Part shown: positions 3,336-16,587 of the stretch, in pieces | Position numbering within the stretch: position 1 is the stretch's first letter | Layout: every line of letters begins with the position of its first letter | DNA from: Halapricum desulfuricans | GTDB lineage: Archaea > Halobacteriota > Halobacteria > Halobacteriales > Haloarculaceae | Assembly: GCF_017094465.1 (NCBI RefSeq) | Contig: NZ_CP064791.1 | Location: 1,240,001 to 1,304,000 of the forward strand | DNA length: 64,000 nt | Direction: 5' to 3' | Notes under the pieces: model-generated | Databases searched by the model: none | What the model saw: only the letters and a program-made list of their open reading frames with translations | Told to the model about the DNA's origin: nothing | Translations under genes and position numbers: made by a program

Positions 3336-3351
3336 TTTTGGCAAGCCTAAA
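3336..3351 (+). promoter_or_regulatory. Iron-box-like operator before the GT2 gene
   Basis: TTTTGGCAAGCCTAAA matches the consensus TTTAGGC-N2-GCCTAAA with one mismatch. A TATA-like ctatatg lies just upstream (3328-3334), so the operator overlaps the region between TATA and the likely start site. It resembles DtxR/SirR/Idr-type metal-dependent repressor sites. The repressor gene is not in this window. Confidence 0.6.
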
Positions 3352-3382: not shown

Positions 3383-4066
3383 ATGAGTGCGTACACGTTT
3401 GAGGATGTCGCGGTCGTCATGGGGACGTACAACGAACAGCAGGCGATCGGAACAGTACTCGACGATATCGATCGCGTGACTGACGGGCAGGCGTCGATCG
3501 TCTGTGTGGACAGTTCCAGCGACCGGACTCCGGAGATCGCCCGCGAGAAGGGCGCGCGGGTCATCGAACAGGAACCCCAGGGGTATGGTGTCGCGGTCGA
3601 GCGCGCGCTTCGCGCGGCTGACCGACCGGTCGTGGTCACGACCGACTGTGACGACACCTATCCGATGGATCGGTTGCCCGATTTTCTGGACGCGATCAAC
3701 GACGGTGCCGACGTGGTCAGCGGCGACCGACTCTCCGGCGGCGCCGAGGCGATGCCAGGGTTCAACCGGCTGGGCAACCGCCTGTTCGCCGTGCTCGCGA
3801 GCCTGCTGATCGACCATCCCGTCCGCGATACGACGACCGGGATGCGCGCCTACCGGACGTCCGTCATCGAGGATATCGAGTGGACCGAGAACACCGGCCT
3901 CTCGGCGGAGTTGCTGTTGCGACCGCTGTCTCGGGGATACGACGTCCGCGAGATCGAGATCGAGTACGGCGAGCGGGCGGGCGAGACGACGCTGGATCCG
4001 ATCGCCGGCGGCGCCGAGATTGCCGGGTCGATTCTGCGCGTGGGCGTCCAGGAGCGACGCCGGTAG
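3383..4066 (+). CDS. GT2 family glycosyltransferase (dolichyl-phosphate mannose synthase-like)
   Basis: The 227-residue product has a single GT-A domain and no membrane helix. The N-terminal strand and loop VVMGTYNEQQAI bind the nucleotide, and the DCDD acidic motif (about residues 88-91, in VVTTDCDDTYPMD) is the metal and sugar-nucleotide site. The size fits soluble DPM1-like enzymes that charge a polyprenyl phosphate with one sugar at the cytoplasmic membrane face. A longer frame from 3332 would translate through the operator and TATA, so ATG 3383 (MSAYTFEDVAV) is chosen. An iron-box-like operator precedes it. The gene converges on the operon ending at 4075. Sugar donor and acceptor are unknown. 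Confidence 0.82.
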   Translation: MSAYTFEDVAVVMGTYNEQQAIGTVLDDIDRVTDGQASIVCVDSSSDRTPEIAREKGARVIEQEPQGYGVAVERALRAADRPVVVTTDCDDTYPMDRLPDFLDAINDGADVVSGDRLSGGAEAMPGFNRLGNRLFAVLASLLIDHPVRDTTTGMRAYRTSVIEDIEWTENTGLSAELLLRPLSRGYDVREIEIEYGERAGETTLDPIAGGAEIAGSILRVGVQERRR

Positions 4067-4074
4067 TGTAGCGC

Positions 4075-4668
4075 TCATCGCGGGCCGCGCTGGTAGCTGT
4101 CGAGACCCCCAGGGTGGCCTGGTGGGTTCTCGAGGCCGACGAGTTCGCCACCGGCCGGCGACGAATAGAAGGCAAAGAGCAGTTCGTTGAGCAGGTAATA
4201 CCGGACCTGTTCGCGCTCTGACCCTTCCGGGTCCGGAGCACTGTCGGCCAGTCCGTAGTCGTCGAAGACGGTCTGTCGGGTCGATCGGTCGAGCGCGGCG
4301 AACGGCCGGTCGTGCCAGTAACGGGCGTATTCGTCGATATTTCCGGCCGCCCGCTGCACGCCGTCGAGGTACGTCTGCCGATCCTGCACGCGACCCACGA
4401 CGTAGGTCTCGACGAACGACTCGACGCCCGACACGGACGCCGGATACAGGGCTTCCGCTGCGGCAACGACCGTCTCCCGCCAGGTGGGGTCGTCGTCGGA
4501 CCCGCGTCGGGGCGGCTCATCATCGAGTTCGTCCCATACCAGTGCGCCGAGCCCGCCGGCTCCGACGCCGGCCGCTCCGAGCGCGATCACCGCGTCCCGT
4601 CGCGTGAGGGTAGGGTTTCCGGTGTCGTCTTCCGCACTGTTCGCCTGCTCGTCCGTCTCGTTCCTCAT
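4075..4668 (-). CDS. Gluconate 2-dehydrogenase subunit 3-like Tat protein
   Basis: The 197-residue protein has a twin-arginine signal (TLTRRDAVIALGAAG, about residues 20-34), a hydrophobic segment, then a soluble domain of the gluconate-2-dehydrogenase subunit 3 type (ALYPASVSGVESFVETYV near residues 72-90; NELLFAFYSSPAGG near the end). These small subunits normally accompany a membrane-bound GMC or FAD sugar dehydrogenase. No such large subunit is present nearby. It is the last gene of the iron transporter operon, and its ATG overlaps the stop of the membrane glycosyltransferase by 4 bases (ATGA), so the two are probably translated together. Its role in an iron operon is unexplained. Confidence 0.72.
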   Translation of the reverse strand: MRNETDEQANSAEDDTGNPTLTRRDAVIALGAAGVGAGGLGALVWDELDDEPPRRGSDDDPTWRETVVAAAEALYPASVSGVESFVETYVVGRVQDRQTYLDGVQRAAGNIDEYARYWHDRPFAALDRSTRQTVFDDYGLADSAPDPEGSEREQVRYYLLNELLFAFYSSPAGGELVGLENPPGHPGGLDSYQRGPR

Positions 4669-6731
4669 TGCTTGGTCACCTCGAGAGTCGTATGCAGAGA
4701 CTGCCCCGGGCGCGTCTCGCCGGGCACGTACGCGGCGGCACCGTCACAGCGGTGGGCCAGCTCACACAACTGGAGACGCGGGGAAATCGCCCGCACGTCG
4801 CCGTCGCTCGCTTCGACCGGCATCGAGAGCGCGTAGCTGAACCCGGCCCCGGTCCCGTAGTCGACGAACAGTTCGAGTTCGAGCGTCTCCCGGCCGTCGA
4901 CGGTGACTTCCAGCGGCTCCGAAACATCGGGCCCCTCGAGCGTGGCGACACTCTCCGAGAGGTCGACAGTGACGTTCGTCGACGCTCCGTCTGCCGGGAC
5001 CGCGGTTCGGGCGTGGTCGTCGCTGCCTGCAAGCCGGATCGAGACGCTCTCGGCGTACTGGGGGAGCCCTGCACTGGCGGTGAGTGTCACCGCCTCGCCC
5101 TCGACCGCCCGAATCGGACGGAGCCGCGGCTCGACCGGCTCGCCAGCGGTCGGCGGCCACGGGTTCCGGAAGCTGTACCGGTAGAGCTGCCGGTCCTCGA
5201 ACGAATCGACCACTTCGAACGGCCGCTCTTCGAGAGCGTACACCGCCGGGCCGTCGTAGCCGGGATCGTTGCGGAGCGGCTGGAAAGGGTGGTTCAACCA
5301 CGGGCCGTAGGGCTGTGGTAGCAAGACCAGCGCGTCCTCGAAGGAGTGGTTCTCGAAGGGCCCGTAGGCGGCTTCGTAGTGGTCAGTTATCGCCTGATTC
5401 CGGTCGATCGGATCGGCCGCGGTCGTGACCGCTACGCCACCACCGACCGCGGCAACGACAGCAGCCAGCGCCATCGATACCGCAAGCGCCTGTCGGGGTT
5501 CGAACTGCCGGTTTAGCGCTGTCCACGTCCGCTGGCTGGCGGTCCGGATCGCCAGCGCCGCCAGCAGCGACAGCGGAACGAGCAGATCGAGGTGATAGTA
5601 CGGTCCCAGGTATGCGATCAGTCCGTCGCCGGACTCGGCGATGTCGCCCAGGATATTCAGCGTGCCCCAGAAGTACGCCTCGCCGACGGGCACGGAGACG
5701 GCGAGCCCGGTGACTGCGAGCCGCCGGGGCGTTCGGTTCCGGAGTACCACCGCGAGGCCGACGACCGCCGTGAGGACGCCGAGCAGGCCGGCCGGAGCCC
5801 AGTCTCTCGCGAACGTCTCCAGCGCGCGGGCGTTCGACCGCGCGGCGAGTTCGGGGGTGTATGCTATTTCCCGGCCGAGCAACTCGCGCGTGCCGAAGCC
5901 GACGCCGTCTCGCGGAGCGAACGCGTGATAGGGAAACTCCAGTGCGGAGCCAGTGACGGCGGCGTTGTATCCCAGCGCAGCGGCGACGCCGACCAGCCCG
6001 ACGGCCGCGACGGTCCCCTGACGGACCCACACGCCGCGCTCGCGGGTTCGCAGTGTCCACAGCGCGTGGAGGATGAACGGGACGGCAAACAGGACAGCTG
6101 TGTAGGGTCGGGCGAAAAACGCGAGCCCGATCGCACCGCCGGCGACGGCCGCCAGTCGGCGGCTCCCCATTCGATCGGCCCGGAGATACGCCAGTGCGAA
6201 CGCCAGGTTCAACAGCGTCGTCGGCGCGTACGGCAGAAAGGTTGCCGCGTTGATCAGAAACAGCGGCGACCCGAGCACGACGAGACCCGCGAGCAAGCCG
6301 GTCGGGCGATCGAACAGTTCCGCGCCCAGCCCAGCCATGAGGGCGACGATCCCCGCGCCGACGACCGCGAGCGTCATTCGCGGCACGCCGAGTGCGAGCC
6401 CCGGGGCGTACATCGCCGGGACCACCGGCGAGTACTTCGAGTACATCCCTCCGGGGCTCTCGACGAAGAACCACGGCCGGAACGCCTCCGGGACGGGTGG
6501 CCGGAGAAAGAGCTGTCCGTCGAGCAACATTCGGGCCTGCTGGAGGTAGACGCCCTCGTCGTGATTGAGCGAGTGATAAGGGAAGACGCGCGTGGCGATC
6601 AGAAAGACGACTGCCCCGGCGAGCAGCGCCAGCAGCCCGACTGCGACGCGCCAGCGCGTCTCCGGGTTACGCACTCGCTTCCGGAGGGACGCGGGCAGGC
6701 GCCGCATGAGGGCGTCCGGACCCGACATCAC
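4665..6731 (-). CDS. GT-C type multi-pass membrane glycosyltransferase (ArnT/PMT-like)
   Basis: The 688-residue protein has one helix near residues 28-48 followed by an exterior loop with acidic residues (NHDEGVYLQQARMLLDG, about 57-73). This is the metal/donor loop of GT-C enzymes that transfer sugars from a lipid-phosphate carrier outside the cell. Around ten more hydrophobic segments follow to about residue 450, then a soluble exterior domain of about 230 residues. The stop overlaps the next gene's ATG by 4 bases, and its own start overlaps the upstream ATPase stop by 4 bases. It is thus embedded in the iron ABC operon. The acceptor could be a lipid, a glycan or a surface protein, and the sequence does not decide. 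Confidence 0.75.
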   Translation of the reverse strand: MMSGPDALMRRLPASLRKRVRNPETRWRVAVGLLALLAGAVVFLIATRVFPYHSLNHDEGVYLQQARMLLDGQLFLRPPVPEAFRPWFFVESPGGMYSKYSPVVPAMYAPGLALGVPRMTLAVVGAGIVALMAGLGAELFDRPTGLLAGLVVLGSPLFLINAATFLPYAPTTLLNLAFALAYLRADRMGSRRLAAVAGGAIGLAFFARPYTAVLFAVPFILHALWTLRTRERGVWVRQGTVAAVGLVGVAAALGYNAAVTGSALEFPYHAFAPRDGVGFGTRELLGREIAYTPELAARSNARALETFARDWAPAGLLGVLTAVVGLAVVLRNRTPRRLAVTGLAVSVPVGEAYFWGTLNILGDIAESGDGLIAYLGPYYHLDLLVPLSLLAALAIRTASQRTWTALNRQFEPRQALAVSMALAAVVAAVGGGVAVTTAADPIDRNQAITDHYEAAYGPFENHSFEDALVLLPQPYGPWLNHPFQPLRNDPGYDGPAVYALEERPFEVVDSFEDRQLYRYSFRNPWPPTAGEPVEPRLRPIRAVEGEAVTLTASAGLPQYAESVSIRLAGSDDHARTAVPADGASTNVTVDLSESVATLEGPDVSEPLEVTVDGRETLELELFVDYGTGAGFSYALSMPVEASDGDVRAISPRLQLCELAHRCDGAAAYVPGETRPGQSLHTTLEVTKQ

Positions 6732-7846
6732 TCCCCGGGATACCAGGCCAGCGAGTGGTCGGCTTCGAGTTCGACACAGACCCGGGTTCCGTGGTCGAAC
6801 TCGGTCGCGTGGTTGTGCTGGCAGTGAACCACGTCGCCGGCGTCGAGTTCGACCCGGTAGACGAACGATGGGCCGGTGTACTGGCGGTGAACGACCTCGC
6901 CGTCGGTGCTTGCTCCGGGACAGGGGATCGCCCGGAGGTCGTCCGGGCGGACCAGCACCTCGATCTCGGCGCCGCGATACTCTTCGATCGAACCGTCGAG
7001 TTGCCGATCGTCGAGCAGTCCCAGTGACGTGTCGACGCCGCCCTCGACGACAGTCCCGGTGAGGAAACTCGCCTGGCCGAGGAAGCTCGCGACGAACCGC
7101 GATTCGGGATGGCCGAACACGTCCTCCGGGCGGCCGATCTGTTCGAGGCGCCCGTCGTTCATGATCGCGACGCGGTCGGAGATCGACAGCGCCTCTTCCT
7201 GGTCGTGGGTGACCGACACCGCCGTCACGCCCGCGGCCTTGAGGATCCGGCGGACCTCCTCGCGCATCTCCTCGCGCAGCCGCACGTCGAGATTCGAGAA
7301 CGGCTCGTCAAGCAACAGCACGTCCGGTTCCGGGGCGAGCGATCGGGCGAGCGCGACCCGCTGGCGCTCCCCGCCCGAGAGGCTCTCCGGACTCCGGTCG
7401 GCGTAGCCCTCGAGGTCGACGAGTTCGAGCAGCTCTTCGACGCGCTCGTCGGCCCCGTCTTCGAGCCCGAAGGCGACGTTCTCGCCGACGGTCAGATGCG
7501 GGAACAGGGCGTACTCCTGAAAGACCAGGCCGACGTCTCGCTGTTCGGGCGGCGTCGCGTCGCGAGCCCCGGCCACGCGTTCGTCGCCGATCGTGATCGT
7601 CCCCTCGGAAGGAGTCTCGAGCCCGGCGATCATCCGCAGCGTCGTCGTCTTGCCACAGCCGCTGGGTCCGAGCAGCGTCACAAGCTCACCTTCCCGAACG
7701 TCCAGCGAGACGCCGTCGACGGCCCGCTCGTCGCCGAAGCGTTTGGTCACGTCCGCCAGCGACAGGATCGGCTCGCCGAAGGAGTCGGTCTCGGGGGTCG
7801 GTTCGATGGACTGTTCGACCGTCGTAGTGAGATCATTCCTTGACAT
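6728..7846 (-). CDS. ABC transporter ATP-binding protein, Fe(III)/thiamine (FbpC-like) type
   Basis: The 372-residue ATPase has all nucleotide-binding motifs: Walker A GPSGCGKTT (about 60-68), signature LSGGERQRVALA, Walker B VLLLDEPFSNLD and the switch SVTHDQEEAL. A C-terminal TOBE-like regulatory domain (about 265-372) is typical of the FbpC/PotA/MalK group. It powers the permease encoded just upstream, whose gene overlaps it by 14 bases, and the substrate-binding protein before that. The set matches bacterial Fbp/Afu/Fut Fe(III) importers, and the operon's iron-box promoter supports iron as substrate. Thiamine or 2-aminoethylphosphonate relatives cannot be excluded by sequence. Confidence 0.88.
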   Translation of the reverse strand: MSRNDLTTTVEQSIEPTPETDSFGEPILSLADVTKRFGDERAVDGVSLDVREGELVTLLGPSGCGKTTTLRMIAGLETPSEGTITIGDERVAGARDATPPEQRDVGLVFQEYALFPHLTVGENVAFGLEDGADERVEELLELVDLEGYADRSPESLSGGERQRVALARSLAPEPDVLLLDEPFSNLDVRLREEMREEVRRILKAAGVTAVSVTHDQEEALSISDRVAIMNDGRLEQIGRPEDVFGHPESRFVASFLGQASFLTGTVVEGGVDTSLGLLDDRQLDGSIEEYRGAEIEVLVRPDDLRAIPCPGASTDGEVVHRQYTGPSFVYRVELDAGDVVHCQHNHATEFDHGTRVCVELEADHSLAWYPGE

Positions 7847-9467
7847 CGTATCGCTCCCGTCCGAGTATCACGAGCATCGACAGCGCCGAGATCCCGATCA
7901 ACACCAGCGCCGGGACGGCGGCCTGCCCGTAGACCGCTGCTTCCTGGACCTGCCAGATGTAGGTTACGAGCGTCTCGAAACCGAACGGCCGCAACAGAAG
8001 CGTCGCGGCCAGCTCCTTCATACTGGTGAGAAAGACCAGCGCGGCCCCGGCGACGATCCCGGGCATCACCAGCGGCAACACGATCTTCCGAAACGCCGCA
8101 AGCGGGGGCTTCCCGAGCGTCCGCGCGGCCTCCAGCAGTTGCGGGTCGACCTGCAGGATCGACGACCGGGTCGTTCCGACGGCCTGGGGGAGGAACCGAA
8201 CGACGTAGGCGAACACCAGCACCGCGATCGAACCGTAGAGGAACGGCGTCACGTTCAGCGCCACGGACAACAGTCCGAACCCGACGATGACGCCCGGAAC
8301 GGCGTAGCCGACGTAACTCGCCCGCTCGGGCAGCGACGCGAGTCGCCCCTCCCCGCGTGCCGAGAGATACGCGAGCGGTAGCGCCGCGAGGACGGACACG
8401 CCCGCCGCCAGCCCCGAAACCAACACCGAGTTCCAGGCGAATTCCCACTGGAAATCGACCGCCGCGCCGGCCAGCTCCGGCGTCGATCGCCCGAGCCACG
8501 TCAGCAAGATTGCCGGCGGCAGCGCGAGCGCCAGCGCCGCGATGGCGAGCGGGAACAGCGTCGCCATCCAGCGCCATCGGCCGAGCCGGACGACGCCCGG
8601 TCGATCCGTGCCGCGGTTGACGTATGCGGACGTCTCGCCGCCGCGCTCGATTCGCGATTCGGCCAGCAGGATGACGACCGTCAGTCCGACCAGCAGGATC
8701 GAGAAGATCGACGCGATATCGACCTGTCGGGCGGTCGTGCGCACGTAGATGATCCGGGTGAACACGTCGAACTGCATGATTGCCGGCGTCCCGAAATCCG
8801 AGAGCGTGTACAGCGCGACCAGCAGTGCCCCCGCGGCGATACCGGGCTTCAGCTGCGGCAGTGTGACCCGTCGGAACGCCGCCAGACGCGTGTGATTGAG
8901 CGTCCGGGCGGCCTCGACGCTGCGACCGTCGATCGACAGCAGCGACGCACGCGTCGTGAGAAACACGTAGGGATAGGTGAACAGCGTCAGCACGATCACC
9001 GAGCCGCCGAGCCCGTAGATCGACGGAATCTGTTCGATCCCGAGCGGCGCGAGTACGGTAGCGAGTTCGCCCCGCGGGCCGAACGCCGAGACGAACGCGA
9101 AGGCACCGATGTAACTCGGGACGACCAGCGGCAGCGCAGCGAGCACGGTAAACAGCCGCCGGAATGGCATATCGGTCTGGGCAGTCAGCACGGCCAGCGG
9201 GACGCCGATCAGGATCGACAACGCCGTGACCGCGACGACGAGCACGACAGTATTGAGGAGGATATCGAATGTCGTCTGTCGCAGCAGGATCTCCAGGAAC
9301 CGATCGATAGGCACCGATCGAGCGCTGTTGAGCACCCACAAAAGCGGTGTCAGAACTGCGACCGCGACCGAACCTGCGAGCAGCGCCAGCACGAGCGTCT
9401 GGACGTCGCTCGGCGAGCGGCGCTTGAACCGCCGGGAGACGGCGTCGATCCGGTCGCTGACTGACAT
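7833..9467 (-). CDS. ABC transporter permease, FbpB-like fused two-domain type
   Basis: The 544-residue protein contains two tandem permease halves, each about six helices with an EAA loop (first half VEAARTLNHTRLAAFRRVTLP; second half LEAARTLGKPPLAAFRKIVLP, near residues 465-485). This internal duplication is the mark of FbpB/FutB/ThiP-type permeases, where one chain supplies both membrane domains. It lies 8 bases after the substrate-binding protein gene and overlaps the ATPase gene by 14 bases, a tight operon. It is expected to move an iron (III) ion or small complex into the cell. Confidence 0.88.
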   Translation of the reverse strand: MSVSDRIDAVSRRFKRRSPSDVQTLVLALLAGSVAVAVLTPLLWVLNSARSVPIDRFLEILLRQTTFDILLNTVVLVVAVTALSILIGVPLAVLTAQTDMPFRRLFTVLAALPLVVPSYIGAFAFVSAFGPRGELATVLAPLGIEQIPSIYGLGGSVIVLTLFTYPYVFLTTRASLLSIDGRSVEAARTLNHTRLAAFRRVTLPQLKPGIAAGALLVALYTLSDFGTPAIMQFDVFTRIIYVRTTARQVDIASIFSILLVGLTVVILLAESRIERGGETSAYVNRGTDRPGVVRLGRWRWMATLFPLAIAALALALPPAILLTWLGRSTPELAGAAVDFQWEFAWNSVLVSGLAAGVSVLAALPLAYLSARGEGRLASLPERASYVGYAVPGVIVGFGLLSVALNVTPFLYGSIAVLVFAYVVRFLPQAVGTTRSSILQVDPQLLEAARTLGKPPLAAFRKIVLPLVMPGIVAGAALVFLTSMKELAATLLLRPFGFETLVTYIWQVQEAAVYGQAAVPALVLIGISALSMLVILGRERYDVKE

Positions 9468-9475
9468 CGTGCGCG

Positions 9476-10702
9476 TTACAGCACCCCTGCCTCGGTCAAT
9501 AGATCCGTCGTCGGTCCGGTGTTCGACAGCTCTGTCAGGTCGATATCGGGCGTCTCCAGCTCGTCGATCGTCGGCAGGTCACCCACCGGCTGCACGCCGG
9601 GGAGCATCGGGTAGGCGTAGGTCCGGGTGGCGAAGAACTCCTGGGCCTCCGCCGAGAGGAGGTGCCGGACGAACACGTCGGCGAGCCCGGCGTTCTCGTC
9701 GCGATCGAGCAGCGCGGCCCCGGAGACGTTGACCAGCGACCCGGCGTCGCCGCGGGTGAAGTGGAGATCCAGCGGTCGGTCGGGCGAGCCGTTGAGCACC
9801 CGCATCGCGTAGTAGTGGTTGGCGAACCCAGCGTCGAGTTCGCCGGTCGAGACCGCATCCGAGATCAAAAACTCGTTGTCGTACGATTGGATCCCCGCCG
9901 CCTGCATGTCCTCGAGCCACTGCAGGGTCGCGTCTTCGCCTTCCAGCAGTCGCATCGCGGTGACAAAGTCCTGGAACGCGCCGTAGGTCGGCGCCCAACC
10001 CATCGCATTCTGGAGCGGGTCGGCATTGGGGATGTCCATCACACTGTCGGGGAGGTCGCTCTCATCGAGCTGGTCAGTGTTGTACGGAATCGCACGGGCA
10101 CGACCGGCGATGCCGACCCAGTTGTTGTCCGGTTCGACGAACGCCCCGGGGACGGGCTCGACAGTTTCGGCAGTCAGTGGTCGGGTCGCCCCCTCCTCGA
10201 CGACGGCCCCGAGCGACCCCGCGCCGATCGAGATGAACACGTCCGCCTGGAGTTGTCCCGTCTGGGCCTCCTCGGCGATCTGGGCGGCGAGTTCGCTCGA
10301 AGGCTTCGGCTGTGCTGTATAGGAGAAGTCGGGATAGACAGCTTCGAGTACGTCGAACAGATCGCGGTACAGCCCGCCCTCGCCGCCGCCGAGATAGATC
10401 GCAAGCTCACCCGAGAGGTTCGGCAGATCCTCCATCGAACGCCCGCCCGGAGCGGGCCGTCCTTCGAGGATCGCACCGGACCCCTGAAACTCCGAGATAG
10501 CCATCGCTTCCATCGCCGCGTCTGCCGCGTCGTAGTCGGGCGGCCCGTAGTCGCCGTCGTCACCGCCACCGAACAGCCCGGTACAGCCCGCGAGCGCGCC
10601 AGTCGCGGCCACACCGCCTGCCGCGAGAAATCGCCGGCGAGAGGGACGATGGCGTTCGCTCGTGGATCCGTCATCGCGCGTGTCGTCGTCAGTTGTCATC
10701 AT
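9476..10702 (-). CDS. Substrate-binding Tat lipoprotein of an Fe(III)-type ABC importer
   Basis: The 408-residue protein starts with two adjacent methionine codons (10702 or 10699). The leader has a twin arginine run (SRRRFLAAGG), a hydrophobic core and lipobox LAGC (about residues 37-40), so the mature protein is anchored outside the membrane. The periplasmic-binding fold follows from about residue 75 (GELAIYLGGGEGGLYRDLFD). Conserved tyrosines (THYYAMRV-like NHYYAM; RTYAYPML) resemble iron ligands of Fbp/Fut proteins. It is the first gene of a five-gene operon. A perfect-arm iron-box operator begins only 5 bases before the first ATG, implying leaderless, repressible transcription. Confidence 0.87.
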   Translation of the reverse strand: MMTTDDDTRDDGSTSERHRPSRRRFLAAGGVAATGALAGCTGLFGGGDDGDYGPPDYDAADAAMEAMAISEFQGSGAILEGRPAPGGRSMEDLPNLSGELAIYLGGGEGGLYRDLFDVLEAVYPDFSYTAQPKPSSELAAQIAEEAQTGQLQADVFISIGAGSLGAVVEEGATRPLTAETVEPVPGAFVEPDNNWVGIAGRARAIPYNTDQLDESDLPDSVMDIPNADPLQNAMGWAPTYGAFQDFVTAMRLLEGEDATLQWLEDMQAAGIQSYDNEFLISDAVSTGELDAGFANHYYAMRVLNGSPDRPLDLHFTRGDAGSLVNVSGAALLDRDENAGLADVFVRHLLSAEAQEFFATRTYAYPMLPGVQPVGDLPTIDELETPDIDLTELSNTGPTTDLLTEAGVL

Positions 10703-10706
10703 TGCT

Positions 10707-10722
10707 TTTAGGCTGGCCTAAA
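10707..10722 (-). promoter_or_regulatory. Iron-box operator of the ABC transporter operon
   Basis: Seven-base inverted arms with a 2-base spacer, TTTAGGCTGGCCTAAA. On the minus strand a TATA element (cttatatc, about 10724-10731) comes first, then this operator, then 4 bases to the ATG, so the operator covers the expected start site. It is nearly identical to the sites at 11926 and 13001. The pattern fits DtxR/SirR/Idr-type Fe(II)-dependent repressors. Confidence 0.82.
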
Positions 10723-10745: not shown

Positions 10746-11909
10746 TCAGTCGTCGGCCGCCGACCTGGCGGACCGAGTGGTTCGAACGCCGTCGGCATCG
10801 ATCGCAGCGAGGCAGTCGAGCCAGTCGTGCATGTGCTCGCCGACGTAGGCGAAGAACTCGCCGTTCTCGTAGTCGGACACGTCGGCAGCGAGCAACTCGT
10901 CGGCCATGCGCTCGAACGCGTCGGCGAACCCCGCTGCTTCGGGGACGCGATCGGCCAGTTCCCAGACGTGTTCGTTCAGTTCGAGCCCGGCCACCTCGTT
11001 GGCCAGGTCGCCGAACGTCGAACGCGGGGCCTTGTTGTGCTCACACAGCGGTGCTCCGTTGTAGATCTGCTTGCCCAGCAGGTCCGCGGCCCGCTTGAGG
11101 AAGACGCCGCTCCAGATGTCGTCGAACCGGCCGACGTCCCAGGGGTTGTCGTCCATCGGCAACTGATAGAACGCCGGGACGATCTCTCGCCTGAACGCGA
11201 GGTTCATCGAGCAGACAGTCAGGTACTGACCGGGTGCGGCCACGAAATCCTCACCGTAGTCGTCCGCGTCGAGTCGGGTCTGAGCCTGCCCGTCGAGGTC
11301 GCCGTCCATCAGGATTCGGACGGCGTCGAGGTCGGGGACGTTCGTCCACAGCCCCTGGGAAGCAACGACCTCAGAGACGGTCGTCGTCTCCGTCCGGACG
11401 GTCTCGTCCATTGCACTGTAGGGGTAGCCACGTGGGTACAGGTCCGTGTCCGTCTCGTGGAGGACGTTCACCCACTGCTCGTCGGACTCGACCGATTCGA
11501 TCGACCCCTGATAGTGGAGGTTGTCCATATGTGTGCCGAAGAAGTCACTATCCTCGTGTGGCAGCGTGTCGTCGTCGATGAACACGCCGTACTCGAACTC
11601 GCCCGCCCAGAGATACAGCAGGCCGAAACTCGTCTGGGCGTGGCTGGCTTCGGGGATCAGATGGCTGTATTCCTCGATCCCCTGCTCGGCGAACCACGCC
11701 TCGCGGGCGCTCCCGTCGAAGATGTCCCCCGAGACGTCAATTTCTTCGAGCATCGACTCCATACTGCCGGTGTCACAGAAATCCTCCGTGACGAGCACGA
11801 AATGCAACCGGTCGGTATCGAACCCGTGGCGGCGAGCGTTCGCCACGTACTCGCGCACACACTCGTGCTCTCTGATCGTCGGTACGATCACGCAAATATC
11901 GGCGGTCAT
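10746..11909 (-). CDS. RGP / UDP-arabinopyranose mutase-like (GT75) protein
   Basis: The 387-residue protein resembles the reversibly glycosylated polypeptide family. It has an N-terminal GT-A start (CVIVPTIREHECVREYV), a triple-Asp motif in GVFIDDDTLPHE (about residues 115-126), and a downstream RFDDIWSGVFLKRAADLLG block like the D-D-I-W region of that family. Known members interconvert UDP-arabinose ring forms or self-glycosylate at an arginine. The role in archaea is not established. It is not overlapped with the ABC operon but lies just upstream of it on the same strand with its own iron-box operator at 11926-11941. Confidence is moderate for the family and low for the reaction. Confidence 0.62.
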   Translation of the reverse strand: MTADICVIVPTIREHECVREYVANARRHGFDTDRLHFVLVTEDFCDTGSMESMLEEIDVSGDIFDGSAREAWFAEQGIEEYSHLIPEASHAQTSFGLLYLWAGEFEYGVFIDDDTLPHEDSDFFGTHMDNLHYQGSIESVESDEQWVNVLHETDTDLYPRGYPYSAMDETVRTETTTVSEVVASQGLWTNVPDLDAVRILMDGDLDGQAQTRLDADDYGEDFVAAPGQYLTVCSMNLAFRREIVPAFYQLPMDDNPWDVGRFDDIWSGVFLKRAADLLGKQIYNGAPLCEHNKAPRSTFGDLANEVAGLELNEHVWELADRVPEAAGFADAFERMADELLAADVSDYENGEFFAYVGEHMHDWLDCLAAIDADGVRTTRSARSAADD

Positions 11910-11925
11910 TGATTACTCACCCTTC

Positions 11926-11941
11926 TTTAGGCCAGCCTAAA
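11926..11941 (-). promoter_or_regulatory. Iron-box operator before the RGP-like gene
   Basis: TTTAGGCCAGCCTAAA has seven-base inverted arms and a 2-base spacer and is the exact reverse complement of the operator at 10707-10722. It ends 16 bases before the ATG at 11909. No clear separate TATA is visible upstream. Confidence 0.8.
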
Positions 11942-13000: not shown

Positions 13001-13016
13001 TTTAGGCCCGCCTAAT
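13001..13016 (+). promoter_or_regulatory. Iron-box operator before the 49-residue gene
   Basis: TTTAGGCCCGCCTAAT matches the other operators except for the last base. A TATA-like cttttatc (12992-12999) sits immediately upstream and the ATG follows 8 bases downstream (13025), repeating the TATA-operator-ATG order seen at 10707. Confidence 0.78.
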
Positions 13017-13024
13017 CCAGTGCG

Positions 13025-13174
13025 ATGGCAGATACCCAAACTCCCGACAATGCGGACGACGAGCGGCCGTCGGTGTCGGCTCACTCACCCACCGAAGAGC
13101 GGACGGTCTTCACGGAGGACGGGAACGCCGACGCCTGGATCGCGACGGACACGACCGTCGAGCCACCGCGGTAG
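13025..13174 (+). CDS. 49-residue iron-box-controlled small protein (DUF7331-like)
   Basis: The frame encodes 49 residues from MADTQTPDNADDERP to a TAG. The C-terminal half (FTEDGNADAWIATDTTVE) resembles, from memory, small haloarchaeal DUF7331 proteins that carry a DAW/LAW-I motif. No cysteine or histidine cluster for metal binding is present. It has its own TATA and an iron-box operator ending 8 bases before the ATG, so it should be leaderless and repressed when iron is plentiful. It converges on dpsA, whose stop lies 22 bases away. Function is unknown. Confidence 0.7.
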   Translation: MADTQTPDNADDERPSVSAHSPTEERTVFTEDGNADAWIATDTTVEPPR

Positions 13175-13196
13175 TCCTAAACTGTTGTCTCCCGCG

Positions 13197-13733
13197 TTAC
13201 TCGCTGACGACTAGCGTATCGTCTTCGAGGTAGTGATCGATGTGGTGAGCGTCCTCCTCGACTTCGATGAGGAGTTGCCGGAGGATCTCGGCGGTCGCGT
13301 GATCGCCGAGGTTCGTGGCGAGATCGACGTGATCCCGGAGGCTCTCGATGATATCGCCGTAGATCTCCAGGTCGTTCTCCAGGGACGTGCGCACGTCGTA
13401 GACGTCGTCACCCTCGGGGTCGACCGGCGCGTGCGCTTCGAGGTTCTTTCCGCCCGCGACCGGAGCGCCGCCGATCGCCTGTAGCCGTTCGGCGAGTTCG
13501 TCGGCGGCCTCTTCGGCGCGTCCGGCGGCCTCTCCGAGGAACTCGTGTACGTCCCGGAACTCCGCGCCCTCGACGTTCCAGTGGTGCTTTTTGAGCTGGT
13601 GGTACAGGACGTACGTCGAAGCGAGATCCGTATTCAGCGCTTCGACGATCTGTTCGGCCTTTCCCTGTTCCAGACGGAGGCGGTTCTCATCGACGGTCCC
13701 TGCCTGTTGGCGGACTTCTTCTTGGGTGCTCAT
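13197..13733 (-). CDS. dpsA: DNA starvation/stationary-phase protection protein DpsA (ferritin-like)
   Basis: The 178-residue protein has the Dps four-helix fold. The ferroxidase ligands sit in YHQLKKHHWNVEG (about residues 43-55), followed by RDVHEFLGEAAGRAEE. Dps proteins form dodecamers that oxidise and store Fe(II) and protect DNA from peroxide. The haloarchaeal DpsA is an iron store. ATG 13733 (MSTQEEVRQQ) is preferred over an upstream in-frame ATG because a TATA-like cctataag lies about 27 bases before it. A GTTTCT-N5-AGAAAC repeat (13768-13784) lies just upstream of that TATA. Storage next to iron-import genes makes functional sense. Confidence 0.93.
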   Translation of the reverse strand: MSTQEEVRQQAGTVDENRLRLEQGKAEQIVEALNTDLASTYVLYHQLKKHHWNVEGAEFRDVHEFLGEAAGRAEEAADELAERLQAIGGAPVAGGKNLEAHAPVDPEGDDVYDVRTSLENDLEIYGDIIESLRDHVDLATNLGDHATAEILRQLLIEVEEDAHHIDHYLEDDTLVVSE

Positions 13734-15294: not shown

Positions 15295-16587
15295 ATGAAA
15301 CACACGCTTCGCTTCCGTGCGTACCTGCCCGACGACGTGGCCAGCGAAGCGTGGCGTCATATCGATATTCTCAGACAGATTCGCAATCACGCTGTCCGAG
15401 ACTACTATAACTCGGACTACAACGACCGGCCATCCGATTACGACCAACACAGCAAACTCAAAGAGTGGACAGACCAGTGGCCGACCTTTGCCGAACCCTC
15501 TCAACACGCCGCACAACAAGCCATCAGCCGGATTCACAGCGATTTGGAAACGCTTCAAGAACGCCGAAACGAAGGCTACGATGTTGGGCGGTTGCGGTGG
15601 CAGGGTGCAGGCGAATTTCGGTCGGTGTCGTACAATCAGTCCAGTCGCTTCAACGTGGATCACAACACGGGCGACGACCGGTTCGTGCGACTCCGACTCG
15701 AAAAGATTGGCTGGTTCAAAATTCGATCAGAACGTGACGTGCCACCAGCAGAGGACATTGACGAGGTTATCCTGAAAAAAGAGACAACGGGTGAGTGGTA
15801 CGTCTCACTGGTGACTACCATAGAAGACACACCAGAGAAACCGCCACTCAGTGAGATTGAACTAGAAGACTGTGTGGGTGTTGACCTTGGCATCACCAGC
15901 TACATCCACACATCCGAAAACCTGTCTGTGGATACGCTTGACCTGTCGGATGAGTACGACTGCTATGCACGCGAGCAGCGAAAACTCGACCGGAAAGAAC
16001 ACGGCTCTGCCAACTGGGAGAGGCAACGCCGGAAAGTAGCCCAAGCGAAACGAAAAATCAAGCGGAGGGTGCGAGACTACCAGCACAAGCTCACGACGTG
16101 GTTGGTCACAGAGTATGACGTCGTGGCCGTCGAAGACTTGAACGTGAAGCCAATGCTGGAAACCACCCAGAACGGCAAAAACAAGCAAGATGCCGCGTGG
16201 TCACGATTTATCGAGCTTCTGGAGTACAAGGCTGACCTACACGGAACGCACGTCGAAAAGGTGAAGCCAGAAGGAACGACGAAAGAGTGCGCTGTGTGTG
16301 GGGTCGAGACAAATAAGCCGATTTGGGTGCGGGAGCACTCCTGTCCTGCGTGTGGGCATACAGACGACCGCGACCTCAACGCAGCGAAGAATATTCTCAG
16401 CCGAGGACTCAAGCAGTTAGGGGCGGGACGCTCCGAATCAACGCCTGTGCAGACTGCGCTCCCTACGTTCACACCTCAGCGAGAGGTTGTGGATGCAAAG
16501 CGCGTCGTTGAAGCAGGAAGCCCCGGGGTCGTACGGAAGACATCGTCTTCCGTGATGACGAGAGACGGAGCCTCTCGAACCACTTGA
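15295..16587 (+). CDS. tnpB: IS200/IS605 family TnpB (RNA-guided endonuclease), solo
   Basis: The 430-residue protein contains an N-terminal helical/WED-like part, then a RuvC domain with the first Asp in CVGVDLGITS, Glu in VAVEDLNVKPM, a zinc ribbon (CAVCG...CPACG) and the final Asp in DDRDLNAAKNI. All catalytic positions are present, so it should be an active omega-RNA-guided nuclease. No tnpA is nearby, as in IS1341-type solo elements. The AbrB gene lies 5 bases upstream. The C-terminal tail after the RuvC-III motif overlaps a strongly folded DNA segment that may encode the guide-RNA scaffold. The element sits between tyrS and a truncated small gene. Confidence 0.93.
   Translation: MKHTLRFRAYLPDDVASEAWRHIDILRQIRNHAVRDYYNSDYNDRPSDYDQHSKLKEWTDQWPTFAEPSQHAAQQAISRIHSDLETLQERRNEGYDVGRLRWQGAGEFRSVSYNQSSRFNVDHNTGDDRFVRLRLEKIGWFKIRSERDVPPAEDIDEVILKKETTGEWYVSLVTTIEDTPEKPPLSEIELEDCVGVDLGITSYIHTSENLSVDTLDLSDEYDCYAREQRKLDRKEHGSANWERQRRKVAQAKRKIKRRVRDYQHKLTTWLVTEYDVVAVEDLNVKPMLETTQNGKNKQDAAWSRFIELLEYKADLHGTHVEKVKPEGTTKECAVCGVETNKPIWVREHSCPACGHTDDRDLNAAKNILSRGLKQLGAGRSESTPVQTALPTFTPQREVVDAKRVVEAGSPGVVRKTSSSVMTRDGASRTT

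Follow-up and report, generated by a model that had tools for sequence, protein, structure and literature searches.

An iron-boxed GT75 mutase-like gene and its gene module in haloarchaea

Most of what is known of family GT75 comes from plant cell walls and two antibiotic pathways. The described member closest to the protein treated here is MtdL of Marinactinospora (PDB 7xpr, 7yua), a GDP-L-Galp/L-Fucp mutase that serves the synthesis of the antibiotic A201A. In MtdL a triple Asp and a His bind Mn, an Arg attacks the sugar and an Asp is catalytic (PMC9937993). Asp87 is required for its mutase activity and the D87S substitution kills the enzyme, whereas Ser stands at this position in active plant enzymes; the plant proteins carry Asp at the position of MtdL S86 (PMC9937993). 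GT75 enzymes with activity characterised to date work as mutases, and glycosylation of the Arg was proposed as a step of the chemistry (PMC9937993). CAZy includes archaeal members of the family (PMC9937993), and haloarchaeal database records of GT75 proteins carry the name 'alpha-1 4-glucan-protein synthase'.

The window, a stretch of 64,000 nucleotides from Halapricum desulfuricans that was analysed as a whole, encodes a GT75 protein. It has in common with MtdL the fold, the DDD/His/Arg/Asp set and a Ser at the base-selecting position (S86 in MtdL, S89 here), at about 22% identity. Whereas MtdL belongs to an antibiotic pathway, the window gene is iron-boxed. The plant RGP/UAM proteins (rice UAM2, PDB 8cid) share PF03214, the triple-Asp motif and the RGYP arginine motif with the window protein, but match it more weakly; we know of no iron regulation of the plant proteins.

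The neighbouring genes also have described counterparts. In Haloferax, AglD, AglR and AglS carry out Dol-P-mannose synthesis, membrane transfer and glycan addition. The haloarchaeal module likewise combines a GT2 Dol-P transferase with a GT-C enzyme and, in some genera only, a flippase-like membrane protein. The genes are different, however, and the module is iron-boxed and accompanied by GT75 and a sugar dehydrogenase. Its substrate-binding protein (SBP) is nearest to the FbpA-type iron-binding proteins of the FbpABC/Fut ferric iron ABC transporters. Unlike these systems, the transporter is embedded in a sugar module, and its permease and ATPase are absent from the cluster in some genera. The bacterial FAD glucose/fructose dehydrogenases (6a2u, 7w2j) likewise pair a GMC catalytic subunit with a small subunit bearing a twin-arginine signal, but here no cytochrome subunit is seen and the genes are iron-boxed.

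Family, fold and catalytic residues of the GT75 protein

10746..11909, minus strand: GT75/RGP-family NDP-sugar mutase-like protein of 387 aa (PF03214, PDB match to MtdL, AlphaFold2 and Foldseek, invariant catalytic residues)

The original prediction assigned the gene to the RGP (GT75) family from a triple-Asp GVFIDDDTLP and a DDIW block. Both are found in the reading frame, the former at residues 108–117 and the latter within RFDDIW at 261–266. PF03214 (RGP) is the top Pfam family with 55 bits against a cut-off of 23.8, and the profile search did not place the protein in another GT family. PF13641 reached just 14.4 bits, far under its cut-off, and the GT2 matches of the model in Foldseek had TM scores of about 0.4 or less by query length; GT2 was therefore rejected as the family. 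No NCBIfam model matched the protein. The closest named relative, from Halapricum hydrolyticum, is 89% identical.

The PDB sequence search returned MtdL first (E 4e-22, 82 bits) and rice UAM2 as a weak second (20 bits), and a profile built from 40 homologues gave the same order. The AlphaFold2 model has a pLDDT of 82 and a pTM of 0.86. Foldseek aligns the whole model with MtdL (388 columns, TM 0.80/0.83), a match that covers the GT-A domain, the GT75-specific core and the C-terminal helices; rice UAM2 comes next (TM 0.63/0.71). The profile, sequence and model comparisons support the assignment of the product to the GT75/RGP family, as a 'GT75 NDP-sugar mutase-like' protein.

The catalytic residues were compared by sequence alignment, without structural superposition. 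Residues D109–111, R159, D195, R257, D260 and H287 of MtdL correspond to D112–114, R160, D193, R261, D264 and H291 of the window protein. D193 is invariant in the alignment of 40 sequences and all the others among the 81 haloarchaeal homologues. R160 sits in YPRGYPY and is the counterpart of the autoglycosylated R159 of MtdL; its loop is modelled with low confidence (pLDDT <50). The expectation that the DDD site would bear out the family in structure thus holds for the fold and for the alignment and invariance of the residues, while their placement comes from sequence and the Arg loop is poorly modelled.

Other positions have changed. D87, Q229 and R90 of MtdL are replaced by His90, Met235 and Thr93, so the substrate, and even the mutase activity, may differ from those of MtdL. 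Since Ser at position 87 is compatible with activity in plants yet lethal in MtdL, substrate and chemistry are not to be read from the residues. S89 and H90 also depart from the UDP-selecting Asp and Ser of plant UAM. With this and the closer relation to MtdL, UDP-arabinose specificity is not supported and we do not claim it, and the proposed likeness to UDP-arabinopyranose mutase stands for the family while the nearer relative is the GDP-sugar mutase. Mutase chemistry is what we infer for the protein from its family.

The iron box and its conservation

11926..11941, minus strand: iron box of the GT75 gene, a DtxR-family-type palindromic operator at -32 to -17 of the ATG; perfect match, reading TTTAGGCCAGCCTAAA on the plus strand
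10707..10722, minus strand: iron box of the Fe(III) ABC transporter, upstream of the SBP gene; perfect match, reading TTTAGGCTGGCCTAAA on the plus strand; at most 1 mismatch in 56/74 orthologous promoters
3336..3351, plus strand: iron box of the dolichol-phosphate hexose transferase gene, TTTTGGCAAGCCTAAA, at -47 to -32 of the ATG at 3383; 1 mismatch; found in 46/54 orthologous promoters

A scan of the window for TTTAGGCNNGCCTAAA, allowing 3 mismatches, gave 4 boxes, against 0.32 expected from shuffles. The operator of the GT75 gene was said to be the exact reverse complement of the transporter operator, which is correct and trivial. Around a centre of 4 nt the motif is palindromic, so the two boxes differ in the centre only and their complementarity carries no extra information.

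Conservation was followed in 81 loci, namely the window's own and the best 80 of 205 related GTDB stretches, all haloarchaeal; the 80 are the most similar ones and hence a biased sample. The perfect 12-position TTTAGGNNNNCCTAAA lies within 150 nt upstream of GT75 in 75 of the 81, and a box with at most 2 mismatches in 80. The box predicted over the gene is therefore strong, and far more widespread than the single locus. In nearly all 81 loci it lies at about -27 to -38 relative to the start codon, which in haloarchaea is the expected promoter position of a leaderless transcript. Fewer than 0.4% of dinucleotide shuffles of the 81 upstream regions reach 2 mismatches or better, and at the 3′ ends of the same genes, taken as a control, the best site has 4. 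Shuffles and conservation together rule out a chance origin of the operator. Four additional loci, from other searches, have boxes with 0–1 mismatch.

The box also precedes orthologues of the Fe(III) SBP, the GT2 enzyme, the gluconate 2-dehydrogenase subunit 3-like protein and a UPF0104 flippase-like gene. It was not found before internal genes of the module (0/70 orthologous upstream regions for PMT_2 and 0/33 for the ATPase).

The genome of the window contains few copies of the motif. Outside the module it precedes a tandem-boxed siderophore-type ABC transporter (Peripla_BP_2, FecCD), and on this ground it is identified as an iron box. A palindromic TTTAGGNNNNCCTAAA at the promoter is thus common to iron-uptake genes, as in a DtxR-family (ferR-type) regulon, and the genome encodes DtxR-family proteins. 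Repression of the GT75 gene by a regulator of this family in the presence of iron appears likely from these features. Box, position and gene order argue strongly that the gene is iron-regulated and a member of the module.

Composition and distribution of the module

9476..10702, minus strand: FbpA-type Fe(III)-binding lipoprotein, an ABC SBP with a Tat-like signal (PDB 3wae/4elo, E 2.5e-45); adjoins GT75 in 74/81 loci
7833..9467, minus strand: iron ABC transporter permease (PF00528 in two stretches; synteny; named iron ABC permease in Salarchaeum)
6728..7846, minus strand: iron ABC transporter ATPase (PF00005 and TOBE_2; synteny)
4665..6731, minus strand: GT-C membrane glycosyltransferase, PMT_2/GT39-like, with a C-terminal DUF7846 (PF25230, 137 bits; PMT_2 weak)
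4075..4668, minus strand: gluconate 2-dehydrogenase subunit 3-like protein (PF13618, 30.3 bits; twin-arginine motif LTRRDAV)
3383..4066, plus strand: dolichol-phosphate hexose transferase, GT2, DPM1-like (PF00535; PDB Dol-P-Man synthase 5mlz, E 6e-14)

The GT39-like protein gave an AlphaFold2 model with a pLDDT of 86, and its Foldseek matches to oligosaccharyltransferase, ArnT and ALG12 indicate the GT-C fold. The GT2 gene faces the rest of the cluster. AepG of Haloarcula was considered as a Dol-P enzyme and set aside; it belongs to a different cluster (HAH_1202-1214) and has C-terminal membrane helices (PMC9943897).

The GMC gene of the genome lies outside the cluster, directly behind an iron box (G000:C1:888952-890526). 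Its product is homologous to the catalytic subunit of FAD glucose/fructose dehydrogenases. The subunit 3-like protein of the cluster, small and with a Tat signal, is probably the export subunit of this dehydrogenase.

The complete arrangement is seen on a Salarchaeum plasmid, in one run of eight genes with four perfect boxes. Alpha-1 4-glucan-protein synthase, SBP, iron permease and ATPase are followed by GT39, gluconate dehydrogenase subunit 3, GMC oxidoreductase and dolichyl-phosphate hexose transferase, the last name being that of the counterpart of the window's GT2 gene. The subunit 3 gene directly before GMC is part of this order. No cytochrome subunit is annotated in the run, and none stands beside GMC in the loci examined.

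Downstream of GT75, the SBP is present in 74 of the 81 loci and the PMT_2/DUF7846 membrane protein in 70. Where the GT39-like gene is in range, the whole ABC transporter lies in between in roughly half of the loci. The intervening genes are SBP and permease in about 10 others and just the SBP in about 23; in 2 loci neither is present. In roughly one locus in three the order GT75-SBP-GT39 lacks intervening permease and ATPase genes, and the tie of the glycan part to this transporter is hence not a strict one. In L049 and in L064, which is from Halocatena, GT75 and the GT39-like gene have neither SBP nor transporter between them. Both loci have a degenerate box, and no other box with at most 2 mismatches was found in their stretches. 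This contrast, small in numbers, fits a box retained for an iron-related task.

Among 292 genomes of the class, whose lists were matched by eye, GT75 and the GT39-like gene are both present in 232 and both absent from 60, a perfect co-occurrence; GMC occurs in 224 of the 232 GT75-bearing genomes and in 2 others. GT75 is found in about 80% of the sampled haloarchaeal genomes, and outside the class the family is absent from all sampled genomes of the phylum.

Several haloarchaea carry GT75 on plasmids of 179–487 kb (H1-H8; L088, L089); on those of Halobaculum marinum and Salarchaeum the iron-sugar module accompanies it, for the most part or completely. One genome encodes a second strongly RGP-like protein (L086, G010:C2:1525556-1526527; 452 bits to PF03214), which has no iron box nearby and merely 26% identity to the haloarchaeal GT75. 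In Natrinema and Halorubrum relatives (L025, L055 and similar loci) a boxed LPG_synthase_TM/UPF0104 flippase-like gene lies directly upstream of GT75, with the box in 21/23. The UPF0104 gene HVO_1859 of Haloferax volcanii is up 11.6-fold at low iron. It was suspected to be a neighbour of GT75, as in Natrinema, but no tie to GT75 was established.

Three further features lie beyond the GT75 gene in the window.

13026-13175, plus strand: conserved protein of 49 aa with the C-terminal sequence TVFTEDGNADAWIATDTTVEPPR; its gene is iron-boxed at 13001-13016
13197-13733, minus strand: DpsA, the haloarchaeal Dps (NF041388, 300 bits), near the iron module
15295-16587, plus strand: TnpB-type IS605 OrfB protein with a Cas12f1-like TNB domain

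The 49-aa protein has no family in Pfam. Across the loci, 10 of its 11 tblastn matches, the window copy included, are boxed upstream with 0–1 mismatch, and the sole unboxed one is a weak match. It looks like an undescribed iron-regulated microprotein. An own iron box was not found for the DpsA gene.

The literature search found no paper on iron control of GT75 or on the module; the ferR regulon (Leyn and Rodionov 2015) may already list the site. The suggestion that an iron-controlled mutase-like enzyme had not been described in archaea therefore probably holds as to the iron control, but archaeal GT75 proteins are already in CAZy. The new part is the iron control and the gene module, not GT75 in archaea.

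A proposed route and its alternatives

Beside what was computed on family, fold, catalytic residues, box, synteny and co-occurrence, a route can be proposed for the module. In iron-replete cells a DtxR-family regulator would sit on the palindromic box overlapping the promoter and repress the GT75 gene. When expressed, the GT75 enzyme, with Mn2+/Mg2+ and the reactive R160, would most likely interconvert the pyranose and furanose forms of an NDP-sugar. In an iron-starvation module it would make the sugar donor in the cytoplasm, probably a furanose. Dolichol phosphate would then receive the sugar from the Dol-P hexose transferase, and its transfer to an extracellular acceptor would fall to the GT39-like membrane enzyme. 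Up to this point, with GT75 as an iron-regulated step that makes the donor for a surface-sugar module, we regard the chain as probable, and it suggests that iron starvation alters surface sugars in haloarchaea.

Outside the cell, the Tat-exported FAD sugar dehydrogenase, composed of GMC and subunit 3, may oxidise a sugar. The product would be a surface glycan or glycolipid, oxidised and of negative charge, which holds Fe(III) or releases it for the transporter, and the FbpA-type lipoprotein with the ABC transporter would import the Fe(III). An oxidised, Fe(III)-holding sugar would join the glycan and transporter halves of the module. The lipid-linked route and the part in iron capture are what the gene content leads us to infer. 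The last step, the holding of iron by the glycan, is by itself only a tentative suggestion. The same holds for the full sequence as a new haloarchaeal mode of iron acquisition, from a furanose-containing lipid-linked sugar made by GT75, through placement by the GT39-like enzyme and oxidation to an iron-holding sugar acid by the FAD dehydrogenase, to FbpA-type uptake; we offer it as possible, and doubtful as a whole.

The glycan could instead be exchanged at low iron for its own sake, one protein glycan (on the S-layer or on the FbpA lipoprotein) being swapped for another and the sugar holding no iron. Such remodelling has a precedent in the change of glycan with salinity in Haloferax. The GT2, GT-C and flippase-like UPF0104 proteins resemble the AglD/AglR/AglS last-mannose route (PMC3871713), and many loci have GT75-SBP-GT39 without permease and ATPase. 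Remodelling alone gives no reason for an FAD sugar dehydrogenase, Tat subunit included, to be iron-boxed, nor for so close a pairing with an Fe(III)-binding protein, and we consider it a conceivable reading of limited credence. The dehydrogenase takes the leading part if its oxidation of sugar serves to reduce Fe(III) outside the cell, the glycan genes supplying or anchoring the sugar. GMC is indeed iron-boxed and nearest to FAD glucose/fructose dehydrogenases, which give electrons to external acceptors. The absence of a cytochrome subunit beside GMC in the loci examined, and an FbpA-type protein that binds Fe(III) and not Fe(II), make such an extracellular ferric reductase unlikely.

The remaining explanations concern GT75 itself. 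Autoglycosylation of the conserved Arg, retained as R160, the loss of MtdL Asp87 and the public name alpha-1,4-glucan-protein synthase would suit a self-glycosylating primer that starts a polysaccharide and is no mutase. Yet the active characterised enzymes are mutases in which Arg glycosylation is proposed as a step (PMC9937993), and the neighbours are Dol-P and GT-C enzymes, with no glycogen or starch enzymes among them, so that a primer appears rather unlikely. That GT75 shares the regulation of the iron transporter merely by chance or history is very improbable. The genes are adjacent and a single regulator could spread over them, but GT75, SBP, GT2 and GMC are each boxed, one of them at a distant locus, the boxes are conserved across the class, and GT75 co-occurs perfectly with the GT39-like gene. 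We thus prefer GT75 as an iron-regulated donor step for surface sugars.

GT75 becomes a conserved iron-boxed gene throughout an archaeal class, and iron starvation is linked to a defined set of surface-sugar enzymes. Genes with vague names, such as alpha-1,4-glucan-protein synthase, GT39 and GMC oxidoreductase, gain a testable role. The module could reveal glycan-based iron capture in brines; if true, a glycan bound to the cell surface would here be the counterpart of a siderophore.
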